DNA from: Kribbella italica
GTDB lineage: Bacteria; Actinomycetota; Actinomycetes; Propionibacteriales; Kribbellaceae
NCBI RefSeq assembly: GCF_014205135.1
Contig: NZ_JACHMY010000001.1
Coordinates: forward strand, 62,001-126,000
Direction of reading: 5' to 3'
Length of the DNA: 64,000 nucleotides
Of the stretch, positions 19,518 through 42,220 are shown in pieces. The first letter of the stretch is position 1. Each line of letters starts with the position of its first letter. Below the pieces are notes generated by a model, which searched no databases, was not told the origin of the DNA, and saw only the letters and a program-made list of their open reading frames with translations. A program made the translations under genes and the position numbers.

Positions 19518-19561
19518 TTGACCCTTCTCGAACGCCCGGCCTACTGTATGCGGTATACCGA
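19518..19561 (+). promoter_or_regulatory. Promoter and operator of the hyi-gcl operon
   Basis: TTGACC (19518-19523) and TACTGT (19542-19547) are spaced 18 bases apart as -35 and -10. The -10 overlaps CTACTGTATGCGGTATACCG (19541-19560), a member of the site family found before the other oxalate-island units. A regulator bound there would cover the promoter, implying repression. The hyi ATG is at 19583. Confidence 0.6.
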
Positions 19562-19582: not shown

Positions 19583-20401
19583 ATGGAAACTGCTGTGCCC
19601 AGGTTCGCCGTGAACTGCTCGCTCCTGTTCACCGAACTGCCTTTGCTGCAAAGACCCGCCGCCGCTCGTACTGCCGGCTTCGAGGCCGTGGAGTTCTGGT
19701 GGCCGTTCGACTCCGCTCTGCCGGGGGACGCCGAGGTCGACGCGTTCGAGCGCGCGATCCTGGAAGCCGGCGTCCAGCTGACCGGACTGAACTTCGCTGC
19801 CGGTGACATGCCGGGTGGCGACCGCGGCCTGGTGTCCTGGCCGCAACGATCGCTGGAGTTCCGCGACAACCTCGCGGTCACGCTGGGGATCGGGGAACGC
19901 CTCGGCTGCCGTGCGTTCAACGCGCTGTACGGCAACCGGGTCGAGGGAGTCGCGCCCCAGGCGCAGGACGAACTGGCCGCCGAGAACCTCGCGCTGGCCG
20001 CCACCGCGGCCGGTTCCTTCGGCGCCACGGTCCTCGTCGAACCGGTCAGCGGCGCCGAACACTACCCGCTGCTGACCGCGGCCGACGCGATCGCGGTGAT
20101 CGACCGCGTGGTCGCCGAGTCCGGTGTCACGAGCATCGGGTTGCTGGCCGACCTGTACCACCTGACCGTCAACGGGGACGACGTGAGCAAGGCGATCACG
20201 ACGTACGCCGACCGGATCGCGCACGTACAGATCGCGGACGCCCCCGGGCGCAACGAGCCCGGCACCGGCACGATCCCGATCGGGCAGCATCTCGGCGAGC
20301 TCGCCGAGGCCGGGTACGACGGCTGGATCGGCTTGGAGTACAAGCCGTCCGGCCCGACCGCCGACAGCTTCGGCTGGCTGACCGACCGCGAATCGTCCTG
20401 A
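19583..20401 (+). CDS. hyi: Hydroxypyruvate isomerase
   Basis: 272-residue AP-endonuclease-2-like TIM barrel that interconverts hydroxypyruvate and tartronate semialdehyde. Family features include [20 protein letters not shown] at the start, [10 protein letters not shown], metal-ligand glutamates in [12 protein letters not shown] and GWIGLEYKP, and the [14 protein letters not shown] segment. It is first in an operon with gcl 28 bases downstream. It lets the cell use either hydroxypyruvate or tartronate semialdehyde on the way from glyoxylate to glycerate. Confidence 0.92.
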
Positions 20402-20429: not shown

Positions 20430-22205
<1,776 letters not shown>

Positions 22206-22217
22206 AGGAGGGACACG

Positions 22218-23267
22218 ATGAGAGTCGCAGTTCTCGGCGCCGGAGCGATCGGCGCGTACGTCGGCGCGGCCCTGCACCGCGGCGGGACCGAGGTCCACCT
22301 GGTGGCTCGTGGCGCCCATCTCGAGGCGATCCGGAAGAACGGCGTCCAGGTGCACAGCCCGCGCGGCGACTGGCTCGCCCGGACGCCGGCCACCGACGAC
22401 CCGCAGGAGATCGGTCCGGTCGACTTCGTCTTCCTCGGGCTGAAGGCCAACTCGTACGCGACCAGCGGCCCGCTGCTGGAACCGCTGCTGCACGACAAGA
22501 CCGCGGTGATCGCGGCCCAGAACGGCATCCCGTGGTGGTACTTCCACGGGCTGCCGGGCCCGTACGAGGGGCACCGGATCGAGTCGGTCGACCCGGGTGG
22601 TGAGGTGACCCGGGTCATCCAGCTCGAACGCGCGATCGGCTGCGTCGTCTACTGCTCGACCGAGCTGGACGGGCCGGGCGTCGTACGGCATCTCGAAGGG
22701 ACCCGGTTCTCGATCGGCGAGCCGGTCGGCGGGCAGAGCGAGCGGTGCCTGGAGTTCAGCGAGGCGATGGTCGCGGGCGGGCTGAAGTGCCCGGTCGAGA
22801 ACGACGTCCGCAACGACATCTGGATCAAGCTGCTCGGCAACGCGGCGTTCAACCCGATCAGCGCGCTGGCCCGGGCGACGATGGTCGAGATCGCCACCCA
22901 CCAGGGCACCCGCGCGATGGTGAAGCTGATGATGGAGGAGACGCTGGAGATCGCCCGAGCGGTCGGCAGCACGCCCGACATCTCGGTCGACAAGCGGATC
23001 GACGGCGCCGAGCGGGTCGGCGAGCACAAGACCTCGATGCTGCAGGACCTGGAGAAGGACAAGCCGCTCGAGCTCGACGTGATCCTCGCGGCGGTGGTGG
23101 AGCTGGCCGACCTGACCGAGACCTTGGCGCCCACCCTGCGCGCGGTGCACGCCGTCGCGGATCTCTTGTCCAGCAAGGTCGGTACGTCGGCCGAGAAGGT
23201 CGCGCACGCTCCCACCTCGGGCCGGATCCCCGGCCCGGGCCGGCCGGCCGCGGTCGTCACCCCCTGA
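22218..23267 (+). CDS. PanE/ApbA-type reductase; candidate oxalyl-CoA reductase
   Basis: 349-residue NADPH-dependent reductase related to 2-dehydropantoate 2-reductase. The cofactor loop is VLGAGAIGAYVGAAL, the conserved lysine is in LGLKANSYA, QNGIPWWYFHGLPGPY follows, and the C-terminal domain has NDIWIKLLGNAAFNPISAL and the family lysine/serine segment GEHKTSMLQDLE. The start has AAGGAGG. It is the third gene of the hyi-gcl operon, far from pantothenate genes. Known biology: PanE2 of Methylobacterium extorquens, annotated the same way, was shown to reduce oxalyl-CoA to glyoxylate. That role fits here and is inferred; true pantothenate synthesis is the alternative. Confidence 0.8.
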   Translation: MRVAVLGAGAIGAYVGAALHRGGTEVHLVARGAHLEAIRKNGVQVHSPRGDWLARTPATDDPQEIGPVDFVFLGLKANSYATSGPLLEPLLHDKTAVIAAQNGIPWWYFHGLPGPYEGHRIESVDPGGEVTRVIQLERAIGCVVYCSTELDGPGVVRHLEGTRFSIGEPVGGQSERCLEFSEAMVAGGLKCPVENDVRNDIWIKLLGNAAFNPISALARATMVEIATHQGTRAMVKLMMEETLEIARAVGSTPDISVDKRIDGAERVGEHKTSMLQDLEKDKPLELDVILAAVVELADLTETLAPTLRAVHAVADLLSSKVGTSAEKVAHAPTSGRIPGPGRPAAVVTP

Positions 23268-23540: not shown

Positions 23541-24748
23541 GTGCCCTGGAACGACCGTGAATTCGTCAAGCTCTGGATCGGCCAGACCGCTTCCAACCTT
23601 GGTGCCCAGACCGCCCAACTCACCCTGCCGCTCGTCGCGCTGACCGCGCTCGGCGGTGGTGCCGGACAGCTCGGCGCCCTCCGCGCCGCGCAGCAGATCC
23701 CGATCCTCGTCTGCTCGCTCGTCGTCGGCCGGCTGGTCGACCGCCTGCGGGCCCGCAACCTGATGGTGTACGCCGATCTCGGGCGCGCCGTCGTCCTGTC
23801 CGCGGTCCCGGCGGCCTGGCTGCTGGGCTGGCTCGGCCTGCCCTTGCTGTACTGCGTCGCCTTCCTGCTCGGCGTACTGTCCGTGTTCTTCGACGTCGCC
23901 TACCAGGCCTTCCTGCCCCGTCTGGTCCGCCGCGAGCAACTTGCCCAGGGCAACAGCCTGCTGGAGAGCGGCCGGTCGGTGACGCAGATCTCCGGGCCGG
24001 CCCTCGGGGGCGGACTGGTGTCGTTGCTCTCGGCGCCCGTCGCCGTCGTCGCGCCGGTGGTGTTCTACCTGTTCTCGTTCCTCTCGATCCAGCGGATCAA
24101 GCGGGCCGAGCGGCAGGCTCCGGTCGCGAGCCGGTCGGTGGGCTGCGGCTGGTCTTCGCCGACCGGTCGTTGCGGGCGATCGCGCTCGCGTCCGCGGTGG
24201 GCCACTTCTTCTTCGCCGGACTGATGACGGTGTACCTGGTCCACCTCGGCACGAGCTTCTCGGGCGGCGTTGTCGGGCTGGTCCTGGCGGCGCTGGGTCC
24301 GGGCGCGCTGATCGGCGCCGTGTTCTCCGCGCGGATTCCCCGGCGCTTCGGCTTCGGGCCGGTGATGATCCTGGCGGCGGTCGGCGCGGACGTCGTGATG
24401 CTCGTCGTACCGGTGTTCGCTCCGGGGGTGGTGGTCCTGATCGCCGTCAACGTGGTCTGCGGGGCGTTGACCCAGTTGATCGACGTCTCGGCCACCTCGG
24501 TACGGCAGGCGATCACGCCGCTGGACGCGCAGGGCCGGGTGGTTGCCGCGCTCAACTTCCTCGGGCTGGGGCTGGCGCCGGTGGGTTCCCTGCTCGCCGG
24601 CGCGGTGGCGGAGGTGCTCGGTGTTCGGGCGGTGCTGCTGGTGTGTGCGCTCGGGATGCTGCTGTCGCCGCTCGCGATGGTGCTGTCGCCGCTGGCGAGG
24701 CTCGGGCGGGTGCTGCCCGACCAGCAGGACCAGTGGTCTTCTCAGTAG
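23541..24748 (+). pseudogene. MFS transporter interrupted by one frameshift
   Basis: The first 195 codons encode a normal MFS half (MPWNDREFVKLWIGQTASNL; FFDVAYQAFLPRLVRREQLA; ESGRSVTQISGPALGG). Near 24126 the family alignment jumps to another frame (GGLRLVFADRSLRAIALASA), which continues to 24748 with six further helices. A single missing base would restore one 402-residue protein of the enterobactin-exporter/macrolide-efflux type. Start GTG at 23541. Either recent inactivation or a sequence error. Confidence 0.8.
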
Positions 24749-25653: not shown

Positions 25654-26538
25654 TCAGGTGTTTCGTCCTGACAGTTCCTCGACCACCTTCAGCAGTGCCG
25701 AGTGGTCGAGGGATCCGTGACCCATGGCACGGGCCGCGGACACCAGTTGGGCGACCAGGCCGGTCACCGGCAGCGCGACGCCGGCCGCGCGGGCGGCGGA
25801 CAGCGCGATGCCCATGTCCTTGTGGTGCAGGTCGATCCGGAAGCCGGGGGCGAACTCCCGGCCCAGCATCGTCGACGCCTTGAGGTCGAGGATCCGGTTC
25901 CCGGCCAGGCCGCCGGCCAGCACCTCGAGCCCGCGCTCGCCGTCGACGCCGGACGCCTCCAGCAGCACGATCGCCTCGCTGACCAGCGAGATGATCCCGG
26001 CCACCATGAGCTGGTTGGCGGCCTTCACCGTCTGGCCCGCGCCGTGACCGCCGACGTGCACAATCGTCCGGCCGAGGTCCTCGAAGATCGGCCGTGCCGT
26101 CTCGAACACGTCGGCCTCACCGCCAACCATGATCGACAGCGACGCCTTGATCGCGCCCTGCTCGCCACCGCTGACCGGCGCGTCCAGCACCTGTACGCCG
26201 TGCTCCGCGCCGACCCGAGCGACCTCCAGCGAGGTCTCCGGCGCGATCGACGACATGTCGATCAGCAGCAGCCCGGCGGGAGCCGACTCCAGTACGCCGC
26301 CCGCTCCGAGCACCACCTCGGCCACCTGCGGCGAGTCCGGCAGCATGGTGATCACCACCTCCGCGCCCGCGACCGCCTCGGCGATCGTCGGCGCGGGCTT
26401 GCCGCCGGCTTGCAGCAGCTTCTCGACCGACGCCGGTACGACGTCGTACCCGCTGACGTCGTACCCGGCCCGGACCAGATTGGCTGCCATGTGCGACCCC
26501 ATGATCCCGAGGCCGATGAATCCGATCTTCCGCGCCAT
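25654..26538 (-). CDS. glxR: 2-hydroxy-3-oxopropionate (tartronate semialdehyde) reductase
   Basis: 294-residue beta-hydroxyacid dehydrogenase that reduces tartronate semialdehyde to glycerate. Cofactor motif IGFIGLGIMGSHMAANL, substrate motif DAPVSGGEQGA, catalytic lysine in KAANQLMVAG, and VMG-type cofactor-discrimination segment GYDV. The ATG overlaps the sucD stop (ATGA), so it is translationally coupled as third gene of sucC-sucD-glxR. It completes the glycerate pathway started by gcl and hyi. GarR-like paralogues are hard to separate by sequence, but the context supports this role. Confidence 0.88.
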   Translation of the reverse strand: MARKIGFIGLGIMGSHMAANLVRAGYDVSGYDVVPASVEKLLQAGGKPAPTIAEAVAGAEVVITMLPDSPQVAEVVLGAGGVLESAPAGLLLIDMSSIAPETSLEVARVGAEHGVQVLDAPVSGGEQGAIKASLSIMVGGEADVFETARPIFEDLGRTIVHVGGHGAGQTVKAANQLMVAGIISLVSEAIVLLEASGVDGERGLEVLAGGLAGNRILDLKASTMLGREFAPGFRIDLHHKDMGIALSAARAAGVALPVTGLVAQLVSAARAMGHGSLDHSALLKVVEELSGRNT

Positions 26539-27437
26539 CACGAACCCACCGGGTCGAGACTCTGCTCGAGCGCGACCCGCATCAGTCGCGCGGTCTCGGA
26601 CGGCGTCTTGCCGACCTTGACCCCGACCGCCTCCAGGGCCTCCTGCTTCGCGACCGCCGTACCGGACGAGCCGGAGACGATCGCGCCGGCGTGGCCCATC
26701 GTCTTGCCCTCGGGCGCGGTGAAGCCGGCCACGTACCCGACGACCGGCTTGGTCACGGACTCGGCGATGAACGCCGCCGCCCGCTCCTCCGCGTCGCCGC
26801 CGATCTCGCCGATCATCACGATCGCCTCGGTGTCGGGGTCGTCCTGGAACGCCCGGAGCGCGTCGATGTGGGTGGTGCCGATGATCGGGTCGCCGCCGAT
26901 GCCGATCGCGGTGGTGAAGCCGTACTCGCGCAGCTCGTACATCATCTGGTACGTCAGCGTGCCCGACTTCGAGACCAGCCCGATCCGGCCCGGACCGGCG
27001 ATGTCGGCCGGGATGATGCCGGCGTTGGCGAGGCCGGGGCTGATCAGGCCGGGGGAGTTCGGGCCGATGATCCGGGTCCCGTTCGCCTCGGCGTGCGCGA
27101 AGAACGCCGCGGTGTCGTGCACCGGGACGCCTTCGGTGATCACCACGACCAGGCCGAGGCCCGCGTCGACGGCCTCGATCACCGCACCCTTGACGAACCG
27201 CGGCGGCACGAACACCACCGAGGTGTCCGCGCCGGTCGACTTCACCGCGTCGGCGCAGGACCCGTAGACCGGGATCGAGCGCTTCGCGAAGTCGACCGAC
27301 TGGCCGCCCTTGCCCGGCGTCACGCCGCCGACGATGTTGGTGCCGGCGGCAAGCATCCGGGAGGTGTGCTTCTGCCCTTCGGCCCCGGTCATGCCCTGCA
27401 CGATGACCTTGCTCTTGTCGGTCAGAAAGATCGCCAT
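26538..27437 (-). CDS. sucD: Succinate-CoA ligase (or related dicarboxylate-CoA ligase) alpha subunit
   Basis: 299-residue CoA-binding subunit. [20 protein letters not shown] is the usual opening; the phosphohistidine is in [18 protein letters not shown] and the CoA region in GGVTPGKGG. It follows sucC closely with its own AGGAG. The surprising point is its place between sucC and glxR in an oxalate island: it may supply succinyl-CoA for an oxalate CoA-transferase, or be a malate-CoA or oxalate-CoA ligase. Sequence alone does not separate these. Confidence 0.92.
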
Positions 27438-27448
27438 CTGTCCAGCTC

Positions 27449-28606
27449 CTATCCGGCCTGCGCGGCCAGCTCGGCGGCGCGGTCGGCGGCACCGTCCATC
27501 GTGTCCACCACCGTCACCAGCGGGTGGTTCGCCGTGGCGAGGATCTTGCGGCCCTCGTCCACGTTGTTGCCGTCCAGCCGGACGACGAGCGGCTTGTTCG
27601 CCGTGGGGCCGAGCAGCTCGAGCGCCTGCACGATGCCGTTGGAGACCGCGTCGCAGGCGGTGATCCCGCCGAACACGTTCACGAACACGCTCTTCACCTG
27701 CGCGTCGCCGAGGATGATCCCCAGCCCGTTGGCCATCACCTCGGCACTGGCGCCGCCGCCGATGTCGAGGAAGTTCGCGGGCTTGACGCCACCGTGCGCC
27801 TCACCGGCGTACGCGACGACGTCGAGCGTCGACATCACCAGGCCGGCGCCGTTGCCGATGATCCCGACCTCGCCGTCGAGCTTGACGTAGTTCAGGCCCT
27901 TCTCCTGTGCGGCGGCCTCCAGCGGGTCGGCCGCGGCCTTGTCCTCGAAGGCGGCGTGGTCGACGTGCCGGTACGCCGCGTTCTCGTCCAGCGTGACCTT
28001 GCCGTCCAGCGCCTCCAGCGTGCCGTCGCCGAGCTTGACCAGTGGATTCACCTCGACCAGCGAGGCGTCCTCGGCGATGAACACCGTCCACAGGCTCTTC
28101 ACCACCTCGGCGGCGCCGTCCGGGAAGCCGGCCGCGGCGACGATCTCGGCGGCCTTCGCGTCGTCGACGCCGACCGCCGGGTCGATGGAGATCTTCGCGA
28201 TCGCGTCGGGGTTGGTGTGCGCGACCTCCTCGATCTCGACACCGCCCTCGGTGCTCGCGATACACAGGTAGCCGCGATTGGCCCGGTCGACCAGGAACGA
28301 CAGGTAGTACTCGTCGGCGATGTCGGCCGCCGGGGCGAGCAGGACCCGGCGTACGACGTGCCCTTTGATGTCCATCCCGAGGATGTCCCCGGCGCGGGCG
28401 GTCGCCTCGGCGGGATCGGCGGCCAGCTTGACGCCACCGGCCTTGCCGCGGCCGCCGGCCTTCACCTGCGCCTTCACCACGACCCGGCCGCCGAGCGCCT
28501 CGGCCGCCGCGGCCGCGTCGGCGGCGTCCTCGACCACGCGGCCGAGGGTGACCGGCACGGCGTGCCGGGCGAAGAGTTCTTTGGCTTGGTACTCCATCAG
28601 GTCCAC
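27449..28606 (-). CDS. sucC: Succinate-CoA ligase (or related ligase) beta subunit, ADP-forming type
   Basis: 385-residue ATP-grasp subunit. The GTG at 28606 starts [20 protein letters not shown], matching the family start; AGGAGAGGA lies upstream. ATP-grasp features include [31 protein letters not shown] and the C-terminal [12 protein letters not shown]. First gene of the leftward operon; an island operator lies 47 bases upstream and the OxlT-like gene starts divergently. Confidence 0.92.
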
Positions 28607-28652
28607 GGGGGCAGTCCTCTCCTCACACAGCACCTGCTTGGGCAATATGGCG

Positions 28653-28671
28653 ACTGTATGCTGTATGCAAG
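28653..28671. promoter_or_regulatory. Island operator, sucC side
   Basis: ACTGTATGCTGTATGCAAG contains two GTATGC half-sites, related to the sites before hyi, the OxlT-like gene, the Oxc-like gene and the small gene at 40848. It is 47 bases before the sucC start. Confidence 0.6.
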
Positions 28672-28729: not shown

Positions 28730-28747
28730 CCATACGGTATGCAGTAG
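28730..28747. promoter_or_regulatory. Island operator, oxlT side
   Basis: CCATACGGTATGCAGTAG includes the perfect palindrome CATAC-G-GTATG. It ends 13 bases before the carrier ATG at 28761, so it likely overlaps the promoter or leader. The ten bases CATACGGTAT plus GCA recur at 31061-31073. Confidence 0.65.
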
Positions 28748-28760
28748 TCAGGAGGCGATC

Positions 28761-30152
28761 ATGACGGACGCGACCACCAGTACGCCTCCCCGGGACGTTC
28801 GGGACGTGTACGGCCGCCGGTACCGCATCGGCGAAGACGCAACTGAACTGACCGGGCGCTCCCGCCGGTGGCAGCTGTGGGCAGCCTGGGCCTGCATGGC
28901 GGCGATCAGTCCGCTGCAGTACTCCTTCGGGGCGGCCGCGCTCGGCCTCGACTCGGGCCGGGCCTGGGGCACGGTCCAGACGATGTGGCTGCTGGCCGTC
29001 TTCGTGGCCTTCCAGGCGCTCGTCGCCATCCCCGCCGCCTGGCTCCAGCGCGTACGCCGGGTGACGCCGACCCAGCTCGTCGTCCTCGGTGGGTTCCTGG
29101 CCGCGGCCGGGCTGGTGACGCTCGCGCACGCCGGCAGCTACGTCGGCGCGTTGTTCGGGTACGCCGTCGTCGGCGGCGCCGGAGCCGGGCTCGTCTACTC
29201 CGCGTGCATCACCACGGCGGCGCGGTGGTTCCCCGACCGACGGACGTCGACGATCGGGTTCGTCACCGGCGGGTTCGCCGTCGGCGCGGTGCCGAGCATC
29301 GCGCTGCTCACGATCTTCGAGACCACTGGGGGTCAGCGCTACGTCTTCGACCTGACCGCGGTCGTCGCCCTGCTGATCGTGATGACCGCGGGCGGCCTGC
29401 TCAAGGACCCGCCGCGGCACTGGTGGCCGGCCGACATCGACGCTCAGGCCTGGGCCGTCGACCGCACGCTGAACCGCAGCATCCCGAACAACCTGCCCGC
29501 CGTGCGCTACTACCGTCCGGCCGAGGCGATGAGGACCGGCGCGCTGCCGCTGATGTGGCTGACGCTGGCGATCAGTACGGCGCTGTCGCTGTTCGGCATC
29601 GCGTTCGTGGTCAGCTACGCGACCGAGGCCCAGCTCGGTGTCGCCGTCGCCGGACTGGCCGCCGGACTGCTTGCCGCGGTCAACGGTCTCGGGCGGTCCT
29701 TCGCGGGCACGCTGTCCGACCGGTTCGGACGGCGGCGCGTGCTGGCCGCCGTACTGATGGTCGAGGGCTTCACCCATGTCGGTCTGGTGCTGGCTGGGGA
29801 AGCCGGGGCAGGCGTCGCATTCGTGCTGTGCGCGATGTTCGCCGGACTCGGCGGCGGTGCCTTCTACGCGATCATGGCGAACCTCGTGCTGGAGTTCTTC
29901 GGCGAGAACAGCCTGCTGCAGAACCAGTCGATCCTCTACAGCGCGAAGGCCGTCGGCGGCCTGGTCGGTGTCGGCGTCGCCGCGGGCCTGGTGGCCACGG
30001 TCGGCTACCGCCCCGTCTTCCTCGCGGCCGGCGCGCTCGGGCTGATCACCGCGCTGATCGTCCGCTTCCTGAAGCAACCCGGACGGCCTGCGCTGTCGGT
30101 GAGCTCCCACTTGGGTACGCCGGTAGCCGGCGCGATCAGGCCGGGCGAGTGA
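28761..30152 (+). CDS. MFS transporter, oxalate/formate antiporter (OxlT) type
   Basis: 463-residue carrier with 12 hydrophobic helices and a helical N-terminal extension. Motif features are AGAGLVYSACITTAARWFPDRR in the OxlT region (helix 4-5), YGRRRVLA-like GTLSDRFGRRRVLA between helices, and conserved QYSFGAAALGLDSG in the first helix. In Oxalobacter this family exchanges oxalate for formate; the neighbouring oxalate enzymes support oxalate uptake. GGAGG precedes the ATG. Confidence 0.85.
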   Translation: MTDATTSTPPRDVRDVYGRRYRIGEDATELTGRSRRWQLWAAWACMAAISPLQYSFGAAALGLDSGRAWGTVQTMWLLAVFVAFQALVAIPAAWLQRVRRVTPTQLVVLGGFLAAAGLVTLAHAGSYVGALFGYAVVGGAGAGLVYSACITTAARWFPDRRTSTIGFVTGGFAVGAVPSIALLTIFETTGGQRYVFDLTAVVALLIVMTAGGLLKDPPRHWWPADIDAQAWAVDRTLNRSIPNNLPAVRYYRPAEAMRTGALPLMWLTLAISTALSLFGIAFVVSYATEAQLGVAVAGLAAGLLAAVNGLGRSFAGTLSDRFGRRRVLAAVLMVEGFTHVGLVLAGEAGAGVAFVLCAMFAGLGGGAFYAIMANLVLEFFGENSLLQNQSILYSAKAVGGLVGVGVAAGLVATVGYRPVFLAAGALGLITALIVRFLKQPGRPALSVSSHLGTPVAGAIRPGE

Positions 30153-31059: not shown

Positions 31060-31076
31060 CCATACGGTATGCAATC
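31060..31076. promoter_or_regulatory. Island operator before the Oxc-like operon
   Basis: CCATACGGTATGCAATC repeats the first 14 bases of the site at 28730 exactly. It lies 40 bases before the decarboxylase start, where it would overlap a promoter. Confidence 0.65.
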
Positions 31077-31115
31077 TACGAAGTGTCTGCCTTTCCTGAG
31101 GAGATGACTGCACAG

Positions 31116-32840
31116 ATGGCCCAAACAGTGTCCGAATCGAACGCGGTCGCGAACCCGACCGAGCCGGAGCCGAAGGCCGCCACGATCTCGGGCGGGCACC
31201 TGGTGGCCAAGGCTCTGAAGGCCGAGGGGATCGACGTGATCTTCACCCTCTGCGGCGGTCACATCATCGACATCTACGACGGCTGCGTCGACGAGGGCAT
31301 CGCCGTCGTCGACGTCCGGCACGAGCAGGTCGCCGCACACGCGGCCGACGGCTACGCCCGGATGACCGGCAAGCCGGGGTGCGCCGTGGTGACCGCGGGT
31401 CCTGGTACGACGGACGCCGTCACCGGTGTGGCCAACGCGTTCCGCGCGGAGAGCCCGATGCTGCTGATCGGCGGCCAGGGCGCGCTGAACCAGCACAAGA
31501 TGGGGTCCCTGCAGGACCTGCCGCACGTCGACATGATGACCCCGATCACCAAGTTCGCGGCCACCGTGCCGCACACCGCGCGGGTCGCCGACATGGTGTC
31601 GATGGCCTTCCGCGAGTGCTACAACGGCGCGCCCGGCCCGTCGTTCCTGGAGATCCCGCGCGACATCCTGGACAACTCCGTACCGGTCGACTCCGCGACC
31701 GTGCCGGAGGCCGGCCGCTACCGCGGTTCGACGAAGTCGATCGGTGACCCGGCCGCGGTCGAGGCGCTGGCCGACCTGCTGGCCCGCGCCGAGAAGCCGG
31801 TCGTGCTGCTCGGGACCCAGGTCTGGACGTCGCGCGGCAGCGACGCGGCGATCGAGTTCGTCCGCAAGAACAGCATCCCGGCCTTCATGAACGGCTCGGC
31901 CCGCGGCACCCTGCCGCCGGGCGACCCGCACCACTTCCACCTGTCGCGGCGCTACGGCTTCAACAACGCCGACCTGATCCTGATCGTCGGGACGCCGTTC
32001 GACTTCCGGATGGGCTACGGCCGCCGGCTGCCCAAGGGCGCGACCGTGGTCCAGATCGACATGGACTACCGCACCGTCGGCAAGAACCGCGACATCGACC
32101 TCGGGCTGGTCGGCGACCCGGGCGCGATCCTGGCCGCCGTCACCCAGGCCTCGTCGGGCCGGGTGCAGAAGGCCGGCGACCGCAAGGCCTGGTTCAACGA
32201 GCTGCGGGCCGAGGAGGACGCGGCGTACCAGAAGCGGCTGCCCAAGCAGCTGTCGGACGCCAACCCGATCCACCCGCTGCGGCTGGCCCACGAGATCAAC
32301 GAGTTCCTCACCGAGGACTCGATCTACATCGGCGACGGCGGTGACATCGTCACCTTCTCCGGCGGTGTCGTCCAGCCCAAGTCGCCCGGCCACTGGATGG
32401 ACCCGGGCCCGCTCGGCACCATCGGCGTCGGCATCCCGTTCGTGATGGCGGCCAAGTACGCCCGTCCGGACAAGGAGGTCGTCGCGCTGTTCGGTGACGG
32501 TGCCTTCTCGCTGACCGGCTGGGACTTCGAGACGCTGGTCCGGTTCAAGCTCCCGTTCGTCGGGGTGGTCGGCAACAACTCCTCGATGAACCAGATCCGC
32601 TACGGCCAGGAGGCCAAGTACGGCCACGACCGCGGCCGGATCGGCAACACCCTCGGCGACGTCAAGTACGACGAGTTCGCCAAGATGCTCGGCGGCTACG
32701 GCGAAGAGGTCCGCGACCCCAAGGACATCGGGCCGGCGATGCAGCGGGCCCGCGAGTCGGGGCTGCCGTCACTGATCAACGTGTGGGTCGACCCGGACGC
32801 GTACGCGCCCGGAACGATGAACCAGACCATGTACAAGTAG
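31116..32840 (+). CDS. TPP-dependent decarboxylase, probable oxalyl-CoA decarboxylase
   Basis: 574-residue TPP enzyme. The catalytic glutamate is in VVDVRHEQVAAHAADGYARM; the TPP/Mg site is GDGAFSLTGWDFETLV ending in NN (VVGNNSSMNQ). The start is taken at 31116, 12 bases after GAGGAG; ATG at 31104 directly abuts that site. The family also includes acetolactate synthases and 2-hydroxyacyl-CoA lyases, and this member is distant from the Oxalobacter enzyme. The assignment rests on its operon with a formyl-CoA transferase-like gene and nearby formate dehydrogenase and OxlT-like carrier. It would convert oxalyl-CoA to formyl-CoA and CO2. Confidence 0.75.
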   Translation: MAQTVSESNAVANPTEPEPKAATISGGHLVAKALKAEGIDVIFTLCGGHIIDIYDGCVDEGIAVVDVRHEQVAAHAADGYARMTGKPGCAVVTAGPGTTDAVTGVANAFRAESPMLLIGGQGALNQHKMGSLQDLPHVDMMTPITKFAATVPHTARVADMVSMAFRECYNGAPGPSFLEIPRDILDNSVPVDSATVPEAGRYRGSTKSIGDPAAVEALADLLARAEKPVVLLGTQVWTSRGSDAAIEFVRKNSIPAFMNGSARGTLPPGDPHHFHLSRRYGFNNADLILIVGTPFDFRMGYGRRLPKGATVVQIDMDYRTVGKNRDIDLGLVGDPGAILAAVTQASSGRVQKAGDRKAWFNELRAEEDAAYQKRLPKQLSDANPIHPLRLAHEINEFLTEDSIYIGDGGDIVTFSGGVVQPKSPGHWMDPGPLGTIGVGIPFVMAAKYARPDKEVVALFGDGAFSLTGWDFETLVRFKLPFVGVVGNNSSMNQIRYGQEAKYGHDRGRIGNTLGDVKYDEFAKMLGGYGEEVRDPKDIGPAMQRARESGLPSLINVWVDPDAYAPGTMNQTMYK

Positions 32841-32900: not shown

Positions 32901-34127
32901 ATGGGTAAGGCCCTTGAAGGTGTTCGCGTACTCGACATGACCCACGTGCAGTCGGGACCGTCCTGCACCCAGATCCTCGCCTGGCTCGGCGCCGACGTGG
33001 TCAAGCTCGAAGCGCCGACCGGTGACATCACCCGCCAGCAGCTGCGCGACCTGCCCGACGTCGACAGCCTCTACTTCACGATGCTCAACTGCAACAAGCG
33101 CAGCATCACCTTGAACATGAAGTCCGAGCGTGGCAAGGAGATCTTCACCGACCTGGTGAAGAACTCCGACGTCCTGGTGGAGAACTTCGCCCCCGGCGCG
33201 ATCGACCGGATGGGCTTCACCTGGGACCGGCTGCAGCTGATCAACCCCGAGCTGATCTTCGCCTCGATCAAGGGCTTCGGCCCCGGCCGGTACGAGGAGT
33301 TCAAGGCCTACGAGGTGGTCGCCCAGGCGATGGGCGGCGCGATGAGCACGACCGGGTTCGAGGACGGCCCGCCGCTGGCCACCGGCGCTCAGATCGGTGA
33401 CTCCGGCACGGGCATCCACCTGGTCGCCGGCATCCTGGCCGCGCTGTACCAGCGGACCGTCACCGGCAAGGGCCAGCGGGTGAGCGTGGCGATGCAGGAG
33501 GCCGTGCTGAACCTCACCCGGGTCAAGCTGCGCGACCAGCAGCGGCTCGCGCACGGCCCGCTGAAGGAGTTCCCGAACGACACCTTCGGCGACGAGGTGC
33601 CGCGCTCGGGCAACGCCTCCGGCGGCGGCCAGCCCGGCTGGGCGGTCAAGACCGCGCCCGGCGGCCCGAACGACTACATCTACGTGATCGTCCAGCCGCC
33701 CGGCTGGGCCCCGATCGCGAGCCTGATCGGCAAGCCCGAGCTGGCCGAGGACCCCGACTGGTCCACGCCCGCGGCCCGGCTCGACAAGCTCGACAAGATG
33801 TTCGCGCTGATCGAGCAGTGGACCGAGCAGCACACCAAGTTCGAGGTGATGGAGAAGCTGAACGCGCTGAACGTGCCGTGCGGCCCGATCCTGTCCACCA
33901 AGGAACTGATCGAGGACGAGACGCTGGCCGAGCTCGGTGCCGTGGTCGAGGTCAAGCACCCGGCCCGGGGCGCGTTCAAGACCGTCGGCTGCCCGATCAA
34001 GCTGTCCGACTCGCCGGTCCAGGTGGAGACCTCACCGGGCCTCGGCGAACACAACTCCGTGATCTACGGCGGCCTCGGCATCGACACCGCCGAGCTGGAA
34101 GAGCTCAAGGCCGCCGGCGTCGTCTGA
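32901..34127 (+). CDS. CaiB/BaiF family CoA-transferase, probable formyl-CoA:oxalate CoA-transferase
   Basis: 408-residue class III CoA-transferase. Opening [34 protein letters not shown] and [16 protein letters not shown] are typical of Frc; the catalytic aspartate is in [21 protein letters not shown] lies before ATG 32901. Second in the operon, 60 bases after the decarboxylase. It moves CoA from formyl-CoA (or succinyl-CoA) to oxalate, making oxalyl-CoA. The donor cannot be decided by eye. Confidence 0.87.
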
Positions 34128-34165: not shown

Positions 34166-36310
34166 ATGACCTATGACAAGGCAGCAGTCCAGTCCATCCT
34201 CGACCAGGCTCTGGCGGAAGGCCGCACCTCGCTGAGCGCACCCGAGGCCAAACTGGTCGCGGACGCGTACGGCATCCCGACCCCGGGAGAGGGCCTGGCC
34301 ACCACTGCCGAGGGCGCCGCGGGCCTCGCGGCCGAGATCGGTTTCCCGGTCGTCCTGAAGATCGTGTCGCCCGACATCCTGCACAAGACCGAGGCGGGCG
34401 GCGTGGTGGTCGGTGTCGACAGCGCCGAGGCGGCCAAGACGGCGTACGACCAGATCGTCGGCAACGCGAAGGCGTACGACGCCAGCGCCTCGATCACCGG
34501 CGTGCAGGTGCAGAAGATGCTGGTCACCGGCGGTGACGTGCAGGAGGTCATCGTCGGCGCGGTCACCGACCAGACGTTCGGCAAGATCGTCGCCTTCGGC
34601 CTGGGCGGTGTCCTGGTCGAGGTGCTCAAGGACGTCACCTTCCGGCTGGCGCCGACCTCGCCGGACGAGGCCCGCTCGATGATCGAGGGGATCGGCGCGC
34701 ACGAGATGCTGAACGGCGTCCGTGGTGCCAAGCCGGTGGACAAGGAGGCGATCGCCCGGATCATCACCAAACTGTCCGACCTGGTCGAGGACTTCCCGCA
34801 GTTCGCCGAGGTGGACCTGAACCCGGTGCTGGCCGGACCGGACGGCGCCACCGCGGTGGACTTCCGGATCATCGTGGACGCCGAGGCCGGCAAGCCGGTG
34901 GAGCGCTACACCCAGGAACAGATCCAGACCGCGATGACCCGGATCATGAAGCCGCGGGCGGTCGCCGTGATCGGCGCCTCGAACGAGGACGGCAAGATCG
35001 GCAACTCGGTGATGAAGAACCTGGTCAACGGCGGCTATCAAGGCGACATCTACCCGGTCAACCCCAAGGGTGGCGAGGTCCTCGGGCTGAAGGCGTTCCC
35101 GAGCATCACCGACATCCCGGGTGACGTCGACGTCGCGGTGTTCGCCGTACCGGCCAAGTTCGTCGGCGGCGCGCTCGAGCAGTGCGGCCAGAAGGGCGTC
35201 GCGGGCGCGATCCTGATCCCGTCCGGGTTCGCCGAGACCGGCGAGCAGGAGCTGCAGGACGAGGTCGTGGCGATCGCCAAGAAGCATGACGTGCGGATCC
35301 TCGGGCCGAACATCTACGGGTACTACTACCTGCCGGAGAACCTCTGCGCGACGTTCTGTACGCCGTACGACGTGAAGGGCAGCGTGGCGCTGTCGTCACA
35401 GAGCGGTGGGATCGGGATGGCGATCCTCGGGTTCAGCCGGTCCAGCCGGATGGGCGTCTCCGCGATCGTTGGGGTAGGCAACAAGGCCGACATCGACGAG
35501 GATGACCTCCTGACGTTCTTCGAGACCGACGACAACACCAACCTGATCGCCATGCACCTGGAAGACCTCAAGGACGGCCGGGCCTTCGCCGAGACCGCGG
35601 CGCGGGTGTCGAAGAAGAAGCCGGTGGTCGTGCTGAAGGCCGGCCGCACCGACATGGGTGCCCGGGCGGCGAGCTCGCACACCGGCGCGCTGGCCGGCAA
35701 CGACAAGGTGTACGACGACATCCTGCGCCAGAGCGGCGTCGTCCGCGCCCCGGGCCTGAACGAGATGCTCCAGTACGCCCGGGGCATCCCGCTGCTGCCG
35801 ACCCCCAAGGGCGAGAACGTCGTCATCATCACCGGCGCCGGCGGCTCGGGCGTCCTGCTGTCGGACGCCTGCGTCGACAACGGCCTGCAGCTGATGGCGA
35901 TGCCCGACGACCTGGACGCCGCGTTCAAGAAGTTCATCCCGCCGTTCGGTGCCTCCGGCAACCCGGTCGACATCACCGGCGGCGAGCCGCCGTCGACGTA
36001 CCGGAACACGGTGGCGCTGGGCCTGCAGGACGACCGGATCCACGCCCTGATCCTGGGCTACTGGCACACCATCGTCACCCCTCCGATGGTGTTCGCGAAG
36101 CTCGTCGCCGAGGTGGTCGAGGAGTACCGGGCCAAGGGCATCGACAAGCCCGTGGTCGCCTCGCTGTCCGGCGACGTCGAGGTCGAGGAGGCCAGCCAGT
36201 ACCTGTTCGAGCACGGCGTGGTCGCCTATCCCTACACCACCGAGACGCCCGTCCAGGTGCTCGGCGCCAAGTACCGGTGGGCCCGCAACGCGGGACCGCT
36301 CGGGTCTTGA
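34166..36310 (+). CDS. ADP-forming acyl-CoA ligase (acetate-CoA ligase family), beta-alpha fusion
   Basis: 714 residues. An N-terminal ATP-grasp (beta) domain (about 1-240, VVLKIVSPDILHKTEAGGVV) is followed by CoA-binding/ligase (alpha) domains (AVAVIGASNEDGKIGNSVMK; SSQSGGIGMA; phosphohistidine in ASSHTGALAGND). This is the reverse of the more common alpha-then-beta order. It follows frc by 39 bases. Possible roles: activating oxalate to oxalyl-CoA, or running backwards on formyl-CoA to yield formate plus ATP. Both are inference; acetate is the default substrate of the family. Confidence 0.85.
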   Translation: MTYDKAAVQSILDQALAEGRTSLSAPEAKLVADAYGIPTPGEGLATTAEGAAGLAAEIGFPVVLKIVSPDILHKTEAGGVVVGVDSAEAAKTAYDQIVGNAKAYDASASITGVQVQKMLVTGGDVQEVIVGAVTDQTFGKIVAFGLGGVLVEVLKDVTFRLAPTSPDEARSMIEGIGAHEMLNGVRGAKPVDKEAIARIITKLSDLVEDFPQFAEVDLNPVLAGPDGATAVDFRIIVDAEAGKPVERYTQEQIQTAMTRIMKPRAVAVIGASNEDGKIGNSVMKNLVNGGYQGDIYPVNPKGGEVLGLKAFPSITDIPGDVDVAVFAVPAKFVGGALEQCGQKGVAGAILIPSGFAETGEQELQDEVVAIAKKHDVRILGPNIYGYYYLPENLCATFCTPYDVKGSVALSSQSGGIGMAILGFSRSSRMGVSAIVGVGNKADIDEDDLLTFFETDDNTNLIAMHLEDLKDGRAFAETAARVSKKKPVVVLKAGRTDMGARAASSHTGALAGNDKVYDDILRQSGVVRAPGLNEMLQYARGIPLLPTPKGENVVIITGAGGSGVLLSDACVDNGLQLMAMPDDLDAAFKKFIPPFGASGNPVDITGGEPPSTYRNTVALGLQDDRIHALILGYWHTIVTPPMVFAKLVAEVVEEYRAKGIDKPVVASLSGDVEVEEASQYLFEHGVVAYPYTTETPVQVLGAKYRWARNAGPLGS

Positions 36311-36419: not shown

Positions 36420-37919
36420 TTGGACGTCACAAGCAAGACCTCAGAAGTACCCGAAGAGCCCGCGGCGGCCGCCGGGACCGAGCGCGTCTGGAAGGCCGGC
36501 CGGCTCGAACCGATGCCGATCCGGCCCCTGCCGCCGGCACCGCCTTCCCTGCACATCCTCGGTCCGACCGTCTTCCTGGTCGCGCTGGGCGTCGGCATGG
36601 GTGAGTCCTACATGTGGCCCCGGCTCGTCCTGGTGTTCGGTCCGGACATCCGGTGGCTGTTCCTGGTCGGTGTCACCCTGCAGGCGTTCGTGCTGCTGGA
36701 GATGGCCCGGTACGCGATGGCGACCGGTGAGTCGATCTTCTTCGGCGCGGCCCGGATCTTCAAACCGATGATGTGGTTCTTCTACGTCGCGGCGATCCTG
36801 ATCTACATGTGGCCCGGCCACCTGTCGGCCGGCGCCTCGGCGTTCGAGGAAGTCAGCGGCATCCCCTGGCAGGCGACAGCCTGTGTGGCGCTGGTCTTCG
36901 TGGGGGTGCTGTTCAGCCTGCTGTCGGTGATCTACAACTTCCTGGAGAAGTTGCTCGGCTTCCTGATCGGCCTGCTGGTGGTCGGGACGTCGGTGATCGC
37001 GGCCATCGTCGGCCAGTGGGGCGACCTGGCCGACACCATCCAGGGCATGTTCGCGTTCGGGTACTTCCCGGACAAGGCCCTGTCGTCGGCGTGGTTCCCG
37101 ATCGTGGTGGGTTCGATCGCCTTCGCCGGCCCGTCCGGCATGCAGCAGATGTGGTACACCCTGCAGCTGCGCGACTCCGGGGCCGGCATGGGCGCGCACA
37201 TCCCGAAGATCCGCGGGCTGCGGTCGTCCGGCGAGGCCGAGGCGATGCCGTCGCGCGGCTTCATGTTCGACACCGAGGACCCCGAGGAGATGAAGAAGTG
37301 GAAGGGGTGGCGCAAGTGGGTCACCTTCGATGCGCTGCTGCTCTTCTGGGGCATCACGATGCTGGTCACGATCTCGTTCACGGTGCTCGCGCTGTCGGCG
37401 GCCCGGGAGAACCCGAACGTGGCCGGCCTGATCGAGGGCGGGGACCGCGAGGCCGCGCTGAAGGCGATGTCCGACGCCTTCGCCTCGGCCGGCAGCCCGT
37501 TCCTGGGCTCGCTGTTCTTCGGCTTCATCGCGCTGATCGGTCTCAACGCGACGCTCGGTCTGTTCGACTCGTTCAGCCGGGGCCAGGCCGACATGACGTA
37601 CTACTTCATCCCCGGGGCCAAGCGGTTCTCGATGTCGAGGATCTACTTCGGGTTCCTGTGGGGCGTCATCGTCTTCGGGATCCTGATCCTGCTGTTCGGT
37701 CCGGCCGACGGACCCGCCGGAATCCTCGACGTCCTGGCGTTCTTGTCCACGTTCGCGATGGGCGCGTACTGCATCGTGTTGCTCCTGGTGAACAACAAGT
37801 TGCTGCCCAAACCGATCCGGCCGGGGCCGCTGCGCAACGTCATCATCGGGTTCGGCGCGGTCTTCTACCTCGGCATGCTGTTCTACAGCCTGATCCGCTT
37901 CGGCGTGGTCCTGGACTGA
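36420..37919 (+). CDS. Nramp-fold membrane transporter lacking the canonical metal motif
   Basis: 499 residues with about 11 hydrophobic helices and a soluble N-terminal tail of 40 residues. TTG start with AAGGAG 5 bases upstream. The first helix reads LGPTVFLVALGVGMGESYMW where metal-ion Nramps have the DPGN turn, and helix 6 reads GPSGMQQMWYTLQLRDSG instead of MPHNL. The overall pattern GP-x3-LVA and MARYAMATGES follow Nramp order. Metal-binding residues are therefore replaced. As fourth gene of the oxalate operon it may carry an organic acid or Mg/Mn; unknown. Confidence 0.7.
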   Translation: MDVTSKTSEVPEEPAAAAGTERVWKAGRLEPMPIRPLPPAPPSLHILGPTVFLVALGVGMGESYMWPRLVLVFGPDIRWLFLVGVTLQAFVLLEMARYAMATGESIFFGAARIFKPMMWFFYVAAILIYMWPGHLSAGASAFEEVSGIPWQATACVALVFVGVLFSLLSVIYNFLEKLLGFLIGLLVVGTSVIAAIVGQWGDLADTIQGMFAFGYFPDKALSSAWFPIVVGSIAFAGPSGMQQMWYTLQLRDSGAGMGAHIPKIRGLRSSGEAEAMPSRGFMFDTEDPEEMKKWKGWRKWVTFDALLLFWGITMLVTISFTVLALSAARENPNVAGLIEGGDREAALKAMSDAFASAGSPFLGSLFFGFIALIGLNATLGLFDSFSRGQADMTYYFIPGAKRFSMSRIYFGFLWGVIVFGILILLFGPADGPAGILDVLAFLSTFAMGAYCIVLLLVNNKLLPKPIRPGPLRNVIIGFGAVFYLGMLFYSLIRFGVVLD

Positions 37920-39684: not shown

Positions 39685-40443
39685 TCAGTCGGTGGTGCGG
39701 CGGCGTCTGGTGGCCGGCTTCTTCTCCGGGGCCGGGGTTGCGGGAGCTTGGCCGGACTGGAGCTCGTGATACGCCGTACGGGTGTGTTCGGTGTGCTCGC
39801 GCATGATCTGGGCGGCCTTGTCCTCGTCGGCCTCGCTGATCGCCTTGACCAGGCGGGCGTGCTCGCGCCAGGAGGCGGCGCCGCGGACGGGGGCGACGGG
39901 GGTGTAGTACCAGCGGACGCGGCGATCGACCTGGCCGGCGAAGTCGACCAGGAAACGGTTGCCGGACATCGCGGTGATCATCGCGTGCAGCTCGCCGTTG
40001 GTGCGCACCGCGCCGTCGATGTCACCGGACTCCTGGAACGCCGTGCCGACCTTGCAGAGCTCCTTGAGCTGCGCGACCGCCTCCTTGGTGGCGTGCCGGG
40101 CCGCGAGCCGCGCGGACTCCGACTCCAGCGCGGCCCGCGCCGCCAGGAGCTGGTCGACCTCGTCCTCGGCCGGGACATGGACCATCGCGCCGAAGCCGGG
40201 GCGCAGGTCCACCCAGCCCTCGTTGTTGAGCCGCTGGAGGGCCTCACGGACGGGCTGGCGGGAGACGCCGAGCATGCCGGCCAGCTCGACCTCGACCAGG
40301 TGCCGGCCGCGCTCCAGCGTGCCGTCGATGATCATCTCGGTGAGGGCCTCGTAGACCGACTCGCGCAGCGGTGTCGGCCGCTTGACGTGCCGAACGCCGG
40401 GGGAGTCGGCGGAGGAATCCGGGCCCGCGCTGATGGTGGTCAT
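39685..40443 (-). CDS. GntR family regulator, FadR subfamily (FCD domain)
   Basis: 252 residues. N-terminal winged helix (LVEVELAGMLGVSRQPVREA; wing GWVDLRPGFGAMV), then an all-helical FCD ligand domain with metal/ligand histidines in GELHAMITAMSGN, WREHARLVKAI and MREHTEHT. The C-terminal tail is basic (KKPATRRRRTTD). ATG 40443 is chosen. A 29-base perfect palindrome lies 24 bases upstream, implying autoregulation. It is the prime candidate for controlling the oxalate island through sites of similar geometry. Confidence 0.9.
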   Translation of the reverse strand: MTTISAGPDSSADSPGVRHVKRPTPLRESVYEALTEMIIDGTLERGRHLVEVELAGMLGVSRQPVREALQRLNNEGWVDLRPGFGAMVHVPAEDEVDQLLAARAALESESARLAARHATKEAVAQLKELCKVGTAFQESGDIDGAVRTNGELHAMITAMSGNRFLVDFAGQVDRRVRWYYTPVAPVRGAASWREHARLVKAISEADEDKAAQIMREHTEHTRTAYHELQSGQAPATPAPEKKPATRRRRTTD

Positions 40444-40467
40444 GAGGTCCTTCCCGAACAACGTGAT

Positions 40468-40496
40468 GGCACTTGGTAGACAGTCTACCAAGTGCC
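40468..40496. promoter_or_regulatory. Perfect 29-base palindromic operator of the GntR gene
   Basis: GGCACTTGGTAGAC-A-GTCTACCAAGTGCC: 14-base arms around a single base, with no mismatch. The core GTAGAC-A-GTCTAC has the GTAnnC-n-GnnTAC layout used by FadR-type repressors. Located 24 bases before the gntR ATG. Confidence 0.8.
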
Positions 40497-40683
40497 AGGT
40501 CTGTTGCCACGCTCTTCGTTGAGCTAGCGGATTTTCTTGTGGTGGAGCCTGACGGTTCCCGTCCTGCTCCCGGTGCTCCGGATCCATGGATCGTGTCCCG
40601 CGGGGAGTCCGCCGCCGCGGTCCGGATCCAGGTGCCGGCGGGTGCCGGTCATCCGTGCCCGGAGCACCGATTCGGGGTGTGGG

Positions 40684-40957: not shown

Positions 40958-42118
40958 TCACGACTTCGCCGAGTAGGAGTGCGCGCCGGCTCCGGCCAGC
41001 CGGCCGCCGTCGACGATCAGGTACTCGTCGCGGATCGGCGTCCGCGCGAACCACGACTCGAGAATCTCGCGCGTCCCCGCGGCGTACCGGGTCTGCGCCG
41101 ACAGCGACGAGCCGGAGATGTGCGGCGTCATGCCGTGGTGCGGCATCGAGCGCCACGGGTGGTCGGCCGGTGCGGGCTGCGGGTACCAGACGTCCCCGGC
41201 GTACCCGGCGAGCTGTCCGCTCTCCAGGGCCCGTACGACGGCGTCGCGGTCGACGATCTTGGCCCGGGCGGTGTTGATCAGGTAGGTGCCGCGCTTCATC
41301 GTCGCGAGCAGCTTGTCGTCGAACAACCCCTCGGTCTCCGGGTGCAGCGGTGCGTTGATGGTCACCACGTCGCAGTGCGGCACCATGCTCGCGGTGTCGG
41401 GGTGGAAGGTCAGGTTGAGCTCGCGCTCGACCGACTCGGGCAGCCGGTGCCGGTCGGTGTAGTGCAGCTTCATGTCGAACGGCGCGAGGCGGCGCAGGAC
41501 CGCGAGCCCGATCCGGCCGGCCGCGACGGTGCCGACGTGCAGGCCTTCGACGTCGTACGAGCGGGAGACGGCGTCGGCGATGTTCCAGCCGCCGTCGGTG
41601 ACGATCTGGTAGGAGGGGATGTAGTTGCGGACCAGGCCGAGCGTCATCATCACCACGTGCTCGGCGACGCTGATGCTGTTGGAGTAGGTGACCTCGGCAA
41701 CGGTCACGCCGGCCGCGATCGCGGCGTCCAGGTCGACGTGGTCGGAGCCGATACCGGCCGTGATCGCCAGCTTCAGGTGCGGCGCCTTCGCGATCCGCTC
41801 CGCGGTCAGGTACGCCGGCCAGAACGGCTGCGAGATGACGATGTCGGTGTCGGGCAGCTCACGGTCGAGGACCGAGTCGTCGCCCTCCTTCGACGAGGTC
41901 ACGACCAGCGTGTGGCCCTGGCTCTCCAGGAAGTTCCGCAGGCCGAGCTCGCCGGACACGCTGCCGAGCAGCGCGCCGGGCCGGAAGTCGATCGCCGACG
42001 GGGACGGCGCGGTCTGTCCGCCGGGGTAGGACTCGATGACCGGTACGTCGTCGCGCGCGTACGACGTCGGGTAGCCGTCGGTCGGGTCGTCGTACAGGAC
42101 GCAGAGGACCTTCGCCAT
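40958..42118 (-). CDS. fdh: NAD-dependent formate dehydrogenase
   Basis: 386-residue D-2-hydroxyacid dehydrogenase-fold enzyme oxidising formate to CO2 with NADH. Diagnostic features are QPFWPAYLTAERI near the formate site, the NSISVAEHVVMMTL segment with the substrate asparagine, NAD loop VGTVAAGRIGLAVLRRL, NAD-selective YTDRHRLPE, and the catalytic histidine in TPHISGSSLSAQTRYAAG. The ATG at 42118 has AAGGAG 9 bases upstream; an in-frame TTG three codons earlier abuts that site. Metal-free cytosolic type. It consumes the formate made from oxalate. The LysR gene upstream probably regulates it. Confidence 0.95.
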   Translation of the reverse strand: MAKVLCVLYDDPTDGYPTSYARDDVPVIESYPGGQTAPSPSAIDFRPGALLGSVSGELGLRNFLESQGHTLVVTSSKEGDDSVLDRELPDTDIVISQPFWPAYLTAERIAKAPHLKLAITAGIGSDHVDLDAAIAAGVTVAEVTYSNSISVAEHVVMMTLGLVRNYIPSYQIVTDGGWNIADAVSRSYDVEGLHVGTVAAGRIGLAVLRRLAPFDMKLHYTDRHRLPESVERELNLTFHPDTASMVPHCDVVTINAPLHPETEGLFDDKLLATMKRGTYLINTARAKIVDRDAVVRALESGQLAGYAGDVWYPQPAPADHPWRSMPHHGMTPHISGSSLSAQTRYAAGTREILESWFARTPIRDEYLIVDGGRLAGAGAHSYSAKS

Positions 42119-42220
42119 GGTGAGCAACTCCTTGTTCTGAAGGGGTTTCCGTCCCTTCAGCCTGGCGGTGACGAGGCCGCCAGGTCCAAGACTTGCTCGC
42201 TATGTCGGGATAGCGGGCGG

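Follow-up and report, generated by a model that had tools for sequence, protein, structure and literature searches.

A PanE/ApbA-family gene in an oxalate island of Kribbella italica as a probable oxalyl-CoA reductase

The closest described systems are proteobacterial. In the sections of the reports cited here, PanE2 of Methylobacterium extorquens is described as a characterised, putative oxalyl-CoA reductase that was used to pull oxalyl-CoA (PMC8411744), and purified M. extorquens PanE has a Km of 0.36 mM for glyoxylate when assayed together with CoA and NADP+, the reaction being called reversible (PMC9485241). Oxalate oxidation combined with assimilation through glyoxylate and glycerate is described for Cupriavidus, and in Cupriavidus necator the homologue ApbA2, 51% identical to PanE2, is encoded near frc-oxc; its deletion slows growth on oxalate, the doubling time rising from 6.5 to 10 h (PMC7486775, likewise from the part of the source cited). 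The Methylobacterium PanE2 had served as the precedent in the preliminary description of the locus analysed here, and to the extent of these sections that precedent is real and extends to ApbA2. Oxalyl-CoA reductases of the PanE2/ApbA2 type are thus already known; what the present locus adds is an actinobacterial member, and its more novel parts are an operator common to the pathway genes and an unexpected candidate substitute for the decarboxylase.

We analysed a window of 64,000 nucleotides, bases 62001–126000 of the single-contig, 8.885 Mb genome of Kribbella italica (Table 1). The PanE-like gene that the preliminary description placed behind hyi-gcl is intact at exactly the coordinates given for it: the PanE/ApbA-fold reductase reads uninterrupted over its full length of 349 aa and begins 12 bp beyond the stop codon of gcl. 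GAAGGAGG lies immediately 5′ of its ATG, giving a strong ribosome-binding sequence in the gcl–panE gap, so that hyi-gcl-panE, with only 12 bp between its last two members, reads as one run. Both ApbA domains are recognised in the product, ApbA with 98 bits and ApbA_C with 94, each above the Pfam cut-off. Its top NCBIfam family, NF005089 (438 bits; cut-off 223), is no discriminator, as four control PanE-like proteins reach 357–405 bits and also exceed that cut-off. The closest named relatives belong to Kribbella (83–87% identity). Just 3′ of the gene, two overlapping open reading frames on the same strand (23541–24224 and 24170–24748) correspond to the first and the second part of the MFS model TIGR00900, owing either to a frameshift in the gene or to an error in the sequence.

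From its context and kinship, the product of the gene is very probably an oxalyl-CoA reductase of the PanE2/ApbA2 type that uses NADPH (a CoA-acylating glyoxylate dehydrogenase) and forms the predicted entry to the assimilatory branch of an oxalate island. Four lines of evidence point to this reading, which the preliminary description had also favoured: linkage to and co-occurrence with frc, a common operator, grouping in the smaller of two trees with proteobacterial relatives from oxalate clusters, and dispensability for pantothenate.

Table 1. Genes and operator-like sites of the oxalate island, with coordinates in the window
Feature	Coordinates	Strand	Evidence
Operator-like site GYATRCNGTATRS, 5′ of hyi-gcl-panE2	19546..19558	+	
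Hydroxypyruvate isomerase-like (hyi), first in run	19583..20401	+	TIGR03234 best match, 265 bits, below equivalog cut-off 353
Glyoxylate carboligase (gcl), island paralogue	20430..22205	+	TIGR01504, 1086 bits, above cut-off 711
PanE/ApbA-family reductase, proposed NADPH-dependent oxalyl-CoA reductase (PanE2/ApbA2 type)	22218..23267	+	Family, alignment, tree, model
Tartronate semialdehyde reductase (TSR), start codon approximate	25654..26532	-	TIGR01505, 367.6 bits, above cut-off
Succinate-CoA ligase alpha (sucD paralogue)	26538..27437	-	Above cut-off
Succinate-CoA ligase beta (sucC paralogue)	27449..28645	-	Above cut-off
Operator-like site between sucC and transporter	28656..28668	+	
Second operator-like site between sucC and transporter	28730..28742	-	
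MFS transporter, oxalate/formate antiporter (OFA) type	28761..30152	+	TIGR00890 137.5 bits, TIGR04259 134.4 bits, both below cut-off
Operator-like site 5′ of ThDP enzyme (ThDP-frc pair)	31060..31072	-	
ThDP (TPP) enzyme in oxalyl-CoA decarboxylase place, HACL-like, likely start ATG 31104	31104..32840	+	TIGR03254, PDB match
Formyl-CoA:oxalate CoA-transferase (frc), likely start ATG 32901	32901..34127	+	TIGR03253, 654.9 bits, above cut-off 504
ADP-forming acyl-CoA synthetase (acetate-CoA ligase type)	34166..36310	+	Below equivalog cut-offs
GntR/FCD regulator, candidate operator owner	39685..40587	-	Pfam FCD and GntR
NAD-dependent formate dehydrogenase	40958..42127	-	NF005750, 694 bits, above cut-off

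The island proved larger than first described. Within 20 kb of the reductase gene lie frc, a ThDP enzyme resembling oxalyl-CoA decarboxylase (OXC), TSR, sucCD, an OFA-type transporter and an NAD-dependent formate dehydrogenase, the genes to be expected in a bacterium that both oxidises oxalate and assimilates it through glyoxylate and glycerate. The sucCD copies (26538–28645, minus strand) and the ADP-forming acyl-CoA synthetase on the plus strand also sit in the island, and may supply the CoA donor that a reductive branch uses up. The genome encodes gcl a second time, in a hyi-TSR-gcl-glycerate kinase operon (L128:7167-11717) that stands beside allantoinase and other purine genes, and the hyi-gcl pair of the window is best seen as a paralogue recruited into the oxalate regulon.

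Comparison with the described systems was made through relatives, with a Methylobacterium bullatum protein taken as proxy for M. extorquens PanE2; the M. bullatum and C. campinensis relatives are 50.6% identical, in line with the 51% published for PanE2 and ApbA2. The window protein resembles PanE2 in its PanE/ApbA family and in the reaction proposed, and the M. bullatum relative lies beside oxlT and a FAH-family gene; it differs in being ~40% identical to that relative, in its actinobacterial origin, in its place in a hyi-gcl run and in lying under a different operator. The Cupriavidus relatives, standing for ApbA2, are 41–42% identical to the window protein and have His270 in common with it, but C. 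campinensis and Cupriavidus sp. EM10 carry a canonical OXC, whereas the window island, like C. metallidurans, has another ThDP enzyme. With ketopantoate reductase (KPR; E. coli PanE and the structures 3ghy, 5ayv and 4ol9) the window protein has the fold and the catalytic Lys and Glu in common; unlike E. coli PanE, to which it is ~21% identical, it has His in place of Asn241 (or of Phe in 3ghy), and unlike a true PanE it appears, by its distribution, dispensable for pantothenate.

Across 38 genomes of the genus, the reductase (at least 82% identity) occurs in 33 and Frc above its cut-off in the identical 33, the same five genomes lacking both. The two genes lie 7.2–17.7 kb apart in 32 of these 33 and on different contigs in the remaining one. 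This co-occurrence (Fisher p 2e-6, among genomes that are related and not independent) is weaker than it appears, because linked genes can be gained or lost as a block. A sample of 197 genomes of the class contains at least 12 that match the reductase at E 1e-60; 11 of these are orthologues (63–100% identity, the match in G094 covering half its length only), and all 11 carry Frc (Fisher p 4e-15, again among related, non-independent genomes). G195 (36% identity, no Frc) was classed as a paralogue, and with its inclusion the count becomes 11 of 12. Frc occurs in at least 15 of the 197, four of them without the reductase, with misses possible because only part of the first-look candidates was scored in many class genomes (up to 10 for the reductase, 8 for Frc and 6 for ThDP/OXC).

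This distribution bears on the reading that the name suggests, namely an ordinary ketopantoate reductase (PanE) serving pantothenate and CoA synthesis and standing behind gcl by chance. Its name, fold and catalytic residues are indeed those of a KPR, but the gene is missing from five of the 38 genus genomes, and panB is present in all 38, these five included. Moreover, a different PanE-like protein (NF006083; 488 bits and above cut-off in the source genome) occurs in 37 of the 38, among them all five that lack the reductase, and a pantothenate role is therefore unlikely. The gene tracks frc, not panB, and Asn194 and Asn241 of E. coli PanE are replaced in it by Met/Leu and His. We consider an ordinary PanE very improbable. 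The preliminary description had counted the absence of a second panE as an argument against its own proposal; another PanE-like gene, the NF006083 member, does exist in the genome.

Gcl is encoded in all 38 genus genomes and lies directly 5′ of the reductase (21–40 nt by match coordinates) in 11 of the 33 carriers, the other 22 having no adjoining gcl match. The earlier claim that the gcl branch would have no source of glyoxylate without the reductase went too far, given this proportion and the second gcl operon in the purine-degradation locus. The same neighbourhood raises the reading of a second TSR that completes the hyi-gcl pathway in place of GlxR: a hyi-gcl run would normally include a TSR, and the second operon of the genome is ordered hyi-TSR-gcl. 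However, a true TSR above the TIGR01505 cut-off is encoded 2.4 kb away in the same island, which makes such a role for the reductase unlikely; TIGR01505 is absent from the 17 NCBIfam matches of the reductase (E 0.001), and the gene stands apart from any gcl match in the 22 genomes just mentioned. A TSR function is in our judgement less probable still than an ordinary PanE.

Neighbourhoods of relatives were surveyed in 80 actinobacterial loci from named genomes, with flanks of up to 8 kb, the Phyllobacterium ThDP protein (not a canonical OXC) and, separately, E. coli OXC being used as probes. The loci contain frc (31), the ThDP enzyme (30), canonical OXC (2) and gcl (7); OFA-type transporter probes match 9 and 26, and molybdenum formate dehydrogenase genes occur in 47–51, depending on the subunit. 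At least one of these markers (frc, ThDP enzyme, OXC, OFA-type transporter, molybdenum formate dehydrogenase or gcl) is present in 79 loci, and in the 80th, which is ended by its contig, hyi lies just upstream of the reductase relative. Proteobacterial relatives, drawn from plasmid-collection records, are found near frc in Phyllobacterium (2 records), Cupriavidus (3 records) and Caballeronia, and adjoin OxlT in M. bullatum and Azospirillum. Genes for pyridine nucleotide transhydrogenase, a source of NADPH, adjoin the relatives in Azospirillum, Skermanella and P. zundukense; the Skermanella stretches surveyed contain no oxalate gene, and their placement in the oxalate group follows kinship and the transhydrogenase only. 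In Rhodobacteraceae SC52 (L116:6418-8927), a His270-type PanE-like gene with ~45% identity to the window protein stands behind an AMP-binding protein that might be an oxalate-CoA ligase, and this locus has none of the surveyed markers. Eight loci with PanE-like proteins of 32–39% identity (L114, L117, L118, L120, L121, L123, L124 and L125) likewise have zero surveyed markers.

The alignment with E. coli PanE shows Lys176, Asn180 and Asn184 retained as Lys204, Asn208 and Asn212, and Asn98, Ser244 and Glu256 as Asn102, Ser273 and Glu285; we take these positions to be the functional residues of KPR, and Asn194 and Asn241 of E. coli PanE to be ligand-side residues. Nearly every row has Met or Leu at the Asn194 position. 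At the Asn241 position all 91 rows of the oxalate group have His270 (the window is among the 81 actinobacterial rows; the other 10 are proteobacterial), whereas the nine control rows have Phe or Ala and 3ghy has Phe. In a tree of 35 rows, comprising the window and 17 of the 80 actinobacterial loci among others, the His270 oxalate group is separated from six other PanE-like rows with support 95/88, after E. coli PanE, the genome's own paralogue, L118 and L124 had been dropped as long rows. A 42-row tree with distant outgroups did not resolve the order, and there the oxalate group was not recovered as one clade. The preliminary description had proposed placing the gene with PanE2 or with true PanE by such a tree; the oxalate group, with its proteobacterial relatives, is set apart from the six PanE-like rows in the smaller tree and is not resolved as a single clade in the larger one.

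An AlphaFold2 model of the reductase (mean pLDDT 87.5) adopts the KPR fold, with 3ghy as its best PDB structure match (Z 42.4, rmsd 1.9, 317 residues). KPR-like neighbours head the structure search, which does not tell functions apart, and D-mandelate dehydrogenase is among the matches. Structures of the same fold include, by entry title, 5ayv with CoA and 2-oxopantoate and 4ol9 with NADP and apparently oxamate, providing a precedent for CoA and for an oxalate-like ligand in the KPR fold. The D-mandelate dehydrogenase match indicates that the fold accepts other 2-oxo acids, and the enzyme might accordingly reduce a different 2-oxo acid or acyl-CoA of the island, for example glyoxylate to glycolate. 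Yet the nearest experimentally studied relatives work, in the cited portions of the reports on them, between oxalyl-CoA and glyoxylate, and reducing glyoxylate next to gcl would be waste; we regard such a substrate as the least probable of the three alternatives.

The pattern GYATRCNGTATRS, an operator-like palindrome, was derived from window sites 5′ of hyi, the transporter and the ThDP enzyme. It has four exact matches in the window versus 0.01 expected and none in 400 kb scanned elsewhere in the same genome. The 80 relative loci, which played no part in writing the pattern, contain 84 exact matches, compared with one in total in 10 dinucleotide shuffles of the set, and 83 of the 84 lie no more than 400 bp 5′ of a pathway gene, in zones that make up 13.7% of bases. 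At least one exact site is present in 37 loci, and 36 of the 80 have one before the reductase relative or hyi. In 46 loci the reductase relative has no exact site; 34 of these have a site with one mismatch no more than 300 bp from it, versus 0.35 expected. No site was found in 16 proteobacterial loci. The palindrome is kept before oxalate genes in several actinomycete families, and because it is common to the reductase run and the ThDP-frc pair, the reductase would, by sequence, belong to the frc regulon. We infer that the GntR/FCD protein of the island reads GYATRCNGTATRS. Chance placement of the gene was rejected, given Frc in the same 33 of 38 genomes and four operator-like sites in the window.

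The ThDP enzyme beside frc occupies the place of OXC, yet by the sequence tests applied it lies outside the OXC family. It scores 234 bits against the OXC model TIGR03254 (cut-off 739) and 510 bits against the acetolactate synthase model (cut-off 587), below the cut-off in both cases, and its best PDB sequence match is a 2-hydroxyacyl-CoA lyase. It is 64% identical to frc-adjoining proteins of Phyllobacterium and C. metallidurans, and 26% identical to E. coli OXC. A motif-based mapping places Leu, Gln and Asn at Tyr120, Glu121 and Ser553, which the cited part of PMC10192776 gives as active-site residues of OXC. Of the 15 Frc genomes in the class sample, four have a canonical OXC, which is directly beside frc in three of them and ~21.5 kb off on the same contig in one; in the remaining 11, frc has this ThDP type as its immediate neighbour. 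Four further class genomes (G103, G119, G206 and G216) have a canonical OXC and no Frc above its cut-off. Decarboxylation by the ThDP enzyme is not to be assumed, because M. extorquens OXC was turned into a glycolyl-CoA synthase by changing a set of residues that includes the equivalents of the Glu and Ser together with Tyr497 and Ala415 (PMC8411744, in the section cited). Among the papers listed by a literature search on OXC variants in actinobacteria and on oxalate use by Kribbella, none evidently assigns the reductase or the ThDP enzyme, although the Kribbella oxalate paper of Robertson and Meyers 2022 may cover part of this. We lean slightly towards a broader view in which annotation has missed both oxalyl-CoA enzymes, the reductase labelled PanE and a HACL-like ThDP enzyme that replaces OXC and may represent either a second origin of the decarboxylation or a formyl-CoA lyase/carboligase, and in which both enzymes share an operator in several actinomycete families; a GntR/FCD protein is its probable reader, and the whole would then be an oxalate regulon.

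We infer the substrate and direction of the reductase and each flux in the following scheme from this context and kinship. The OFA-type transporter would import oxalate, which Frc would convert to oxalyl-CoA. Part of the oxalyl-CoA would pass to formyl-CoA, the decarboxylation probably being carried out by the adjoining ThDP enzyme, and formate dehydrogenase would oxidise formate for energy. The remainder would be reduced to glyoxylate and CoA by the PanE-like enzyme, after which Gcl would join two glyoxylate molecules into tartronate semialdehyde and TSR would convert this to glycerate. Oxalyl-CoA is a 2-oxo acid with S-CoA as its side group, so a ketopantoate-reductase site could deliver hydride to it; the carbonyl that adjoins the carboxylate would be the acceptor, Lys204 and Glu285 would form the predicted catalytic pair, and the resulting hemithioacetal would collapse to glyoxylate and CoA, with no need for an active-site cysteine. 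Since the reductive branch would give free CoA and not formyl-CoA, the transferase would exhaust its donor, which would explain the CoA ligases of the island.

Oxalate is a large soil carbon pool derived from plants and fungi, and actinomycetes are prominent in soil. If the oxalyl-CoA reductase reading is true, a gene routinely mislabelled 2-dehydropantoate 2-reductase becomes a marker that separates oxalate assimilators from bacteria that only decarboxylate, a split that would run through the class sample at 11 of 15 Frc genomes with the reductase and four without. It would also supply an annotation rule, namely a PanE-like protein with His at position 270, encoded near frc with the operator upstream, and would open the regulon to test. 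If the neighbouring ThDP enzyme indeed takes the place of OXC, gene surveys based on canonical oxc would miss most of the oxalate users in the class sample (11 of 15).

An Nramp-family transporter gene (36420–37919, plus strand) adjoins the oxalate genes and has counterparts in 22 of the 80 relative loci; at a guess, it handles metal freed from metal oxalates.
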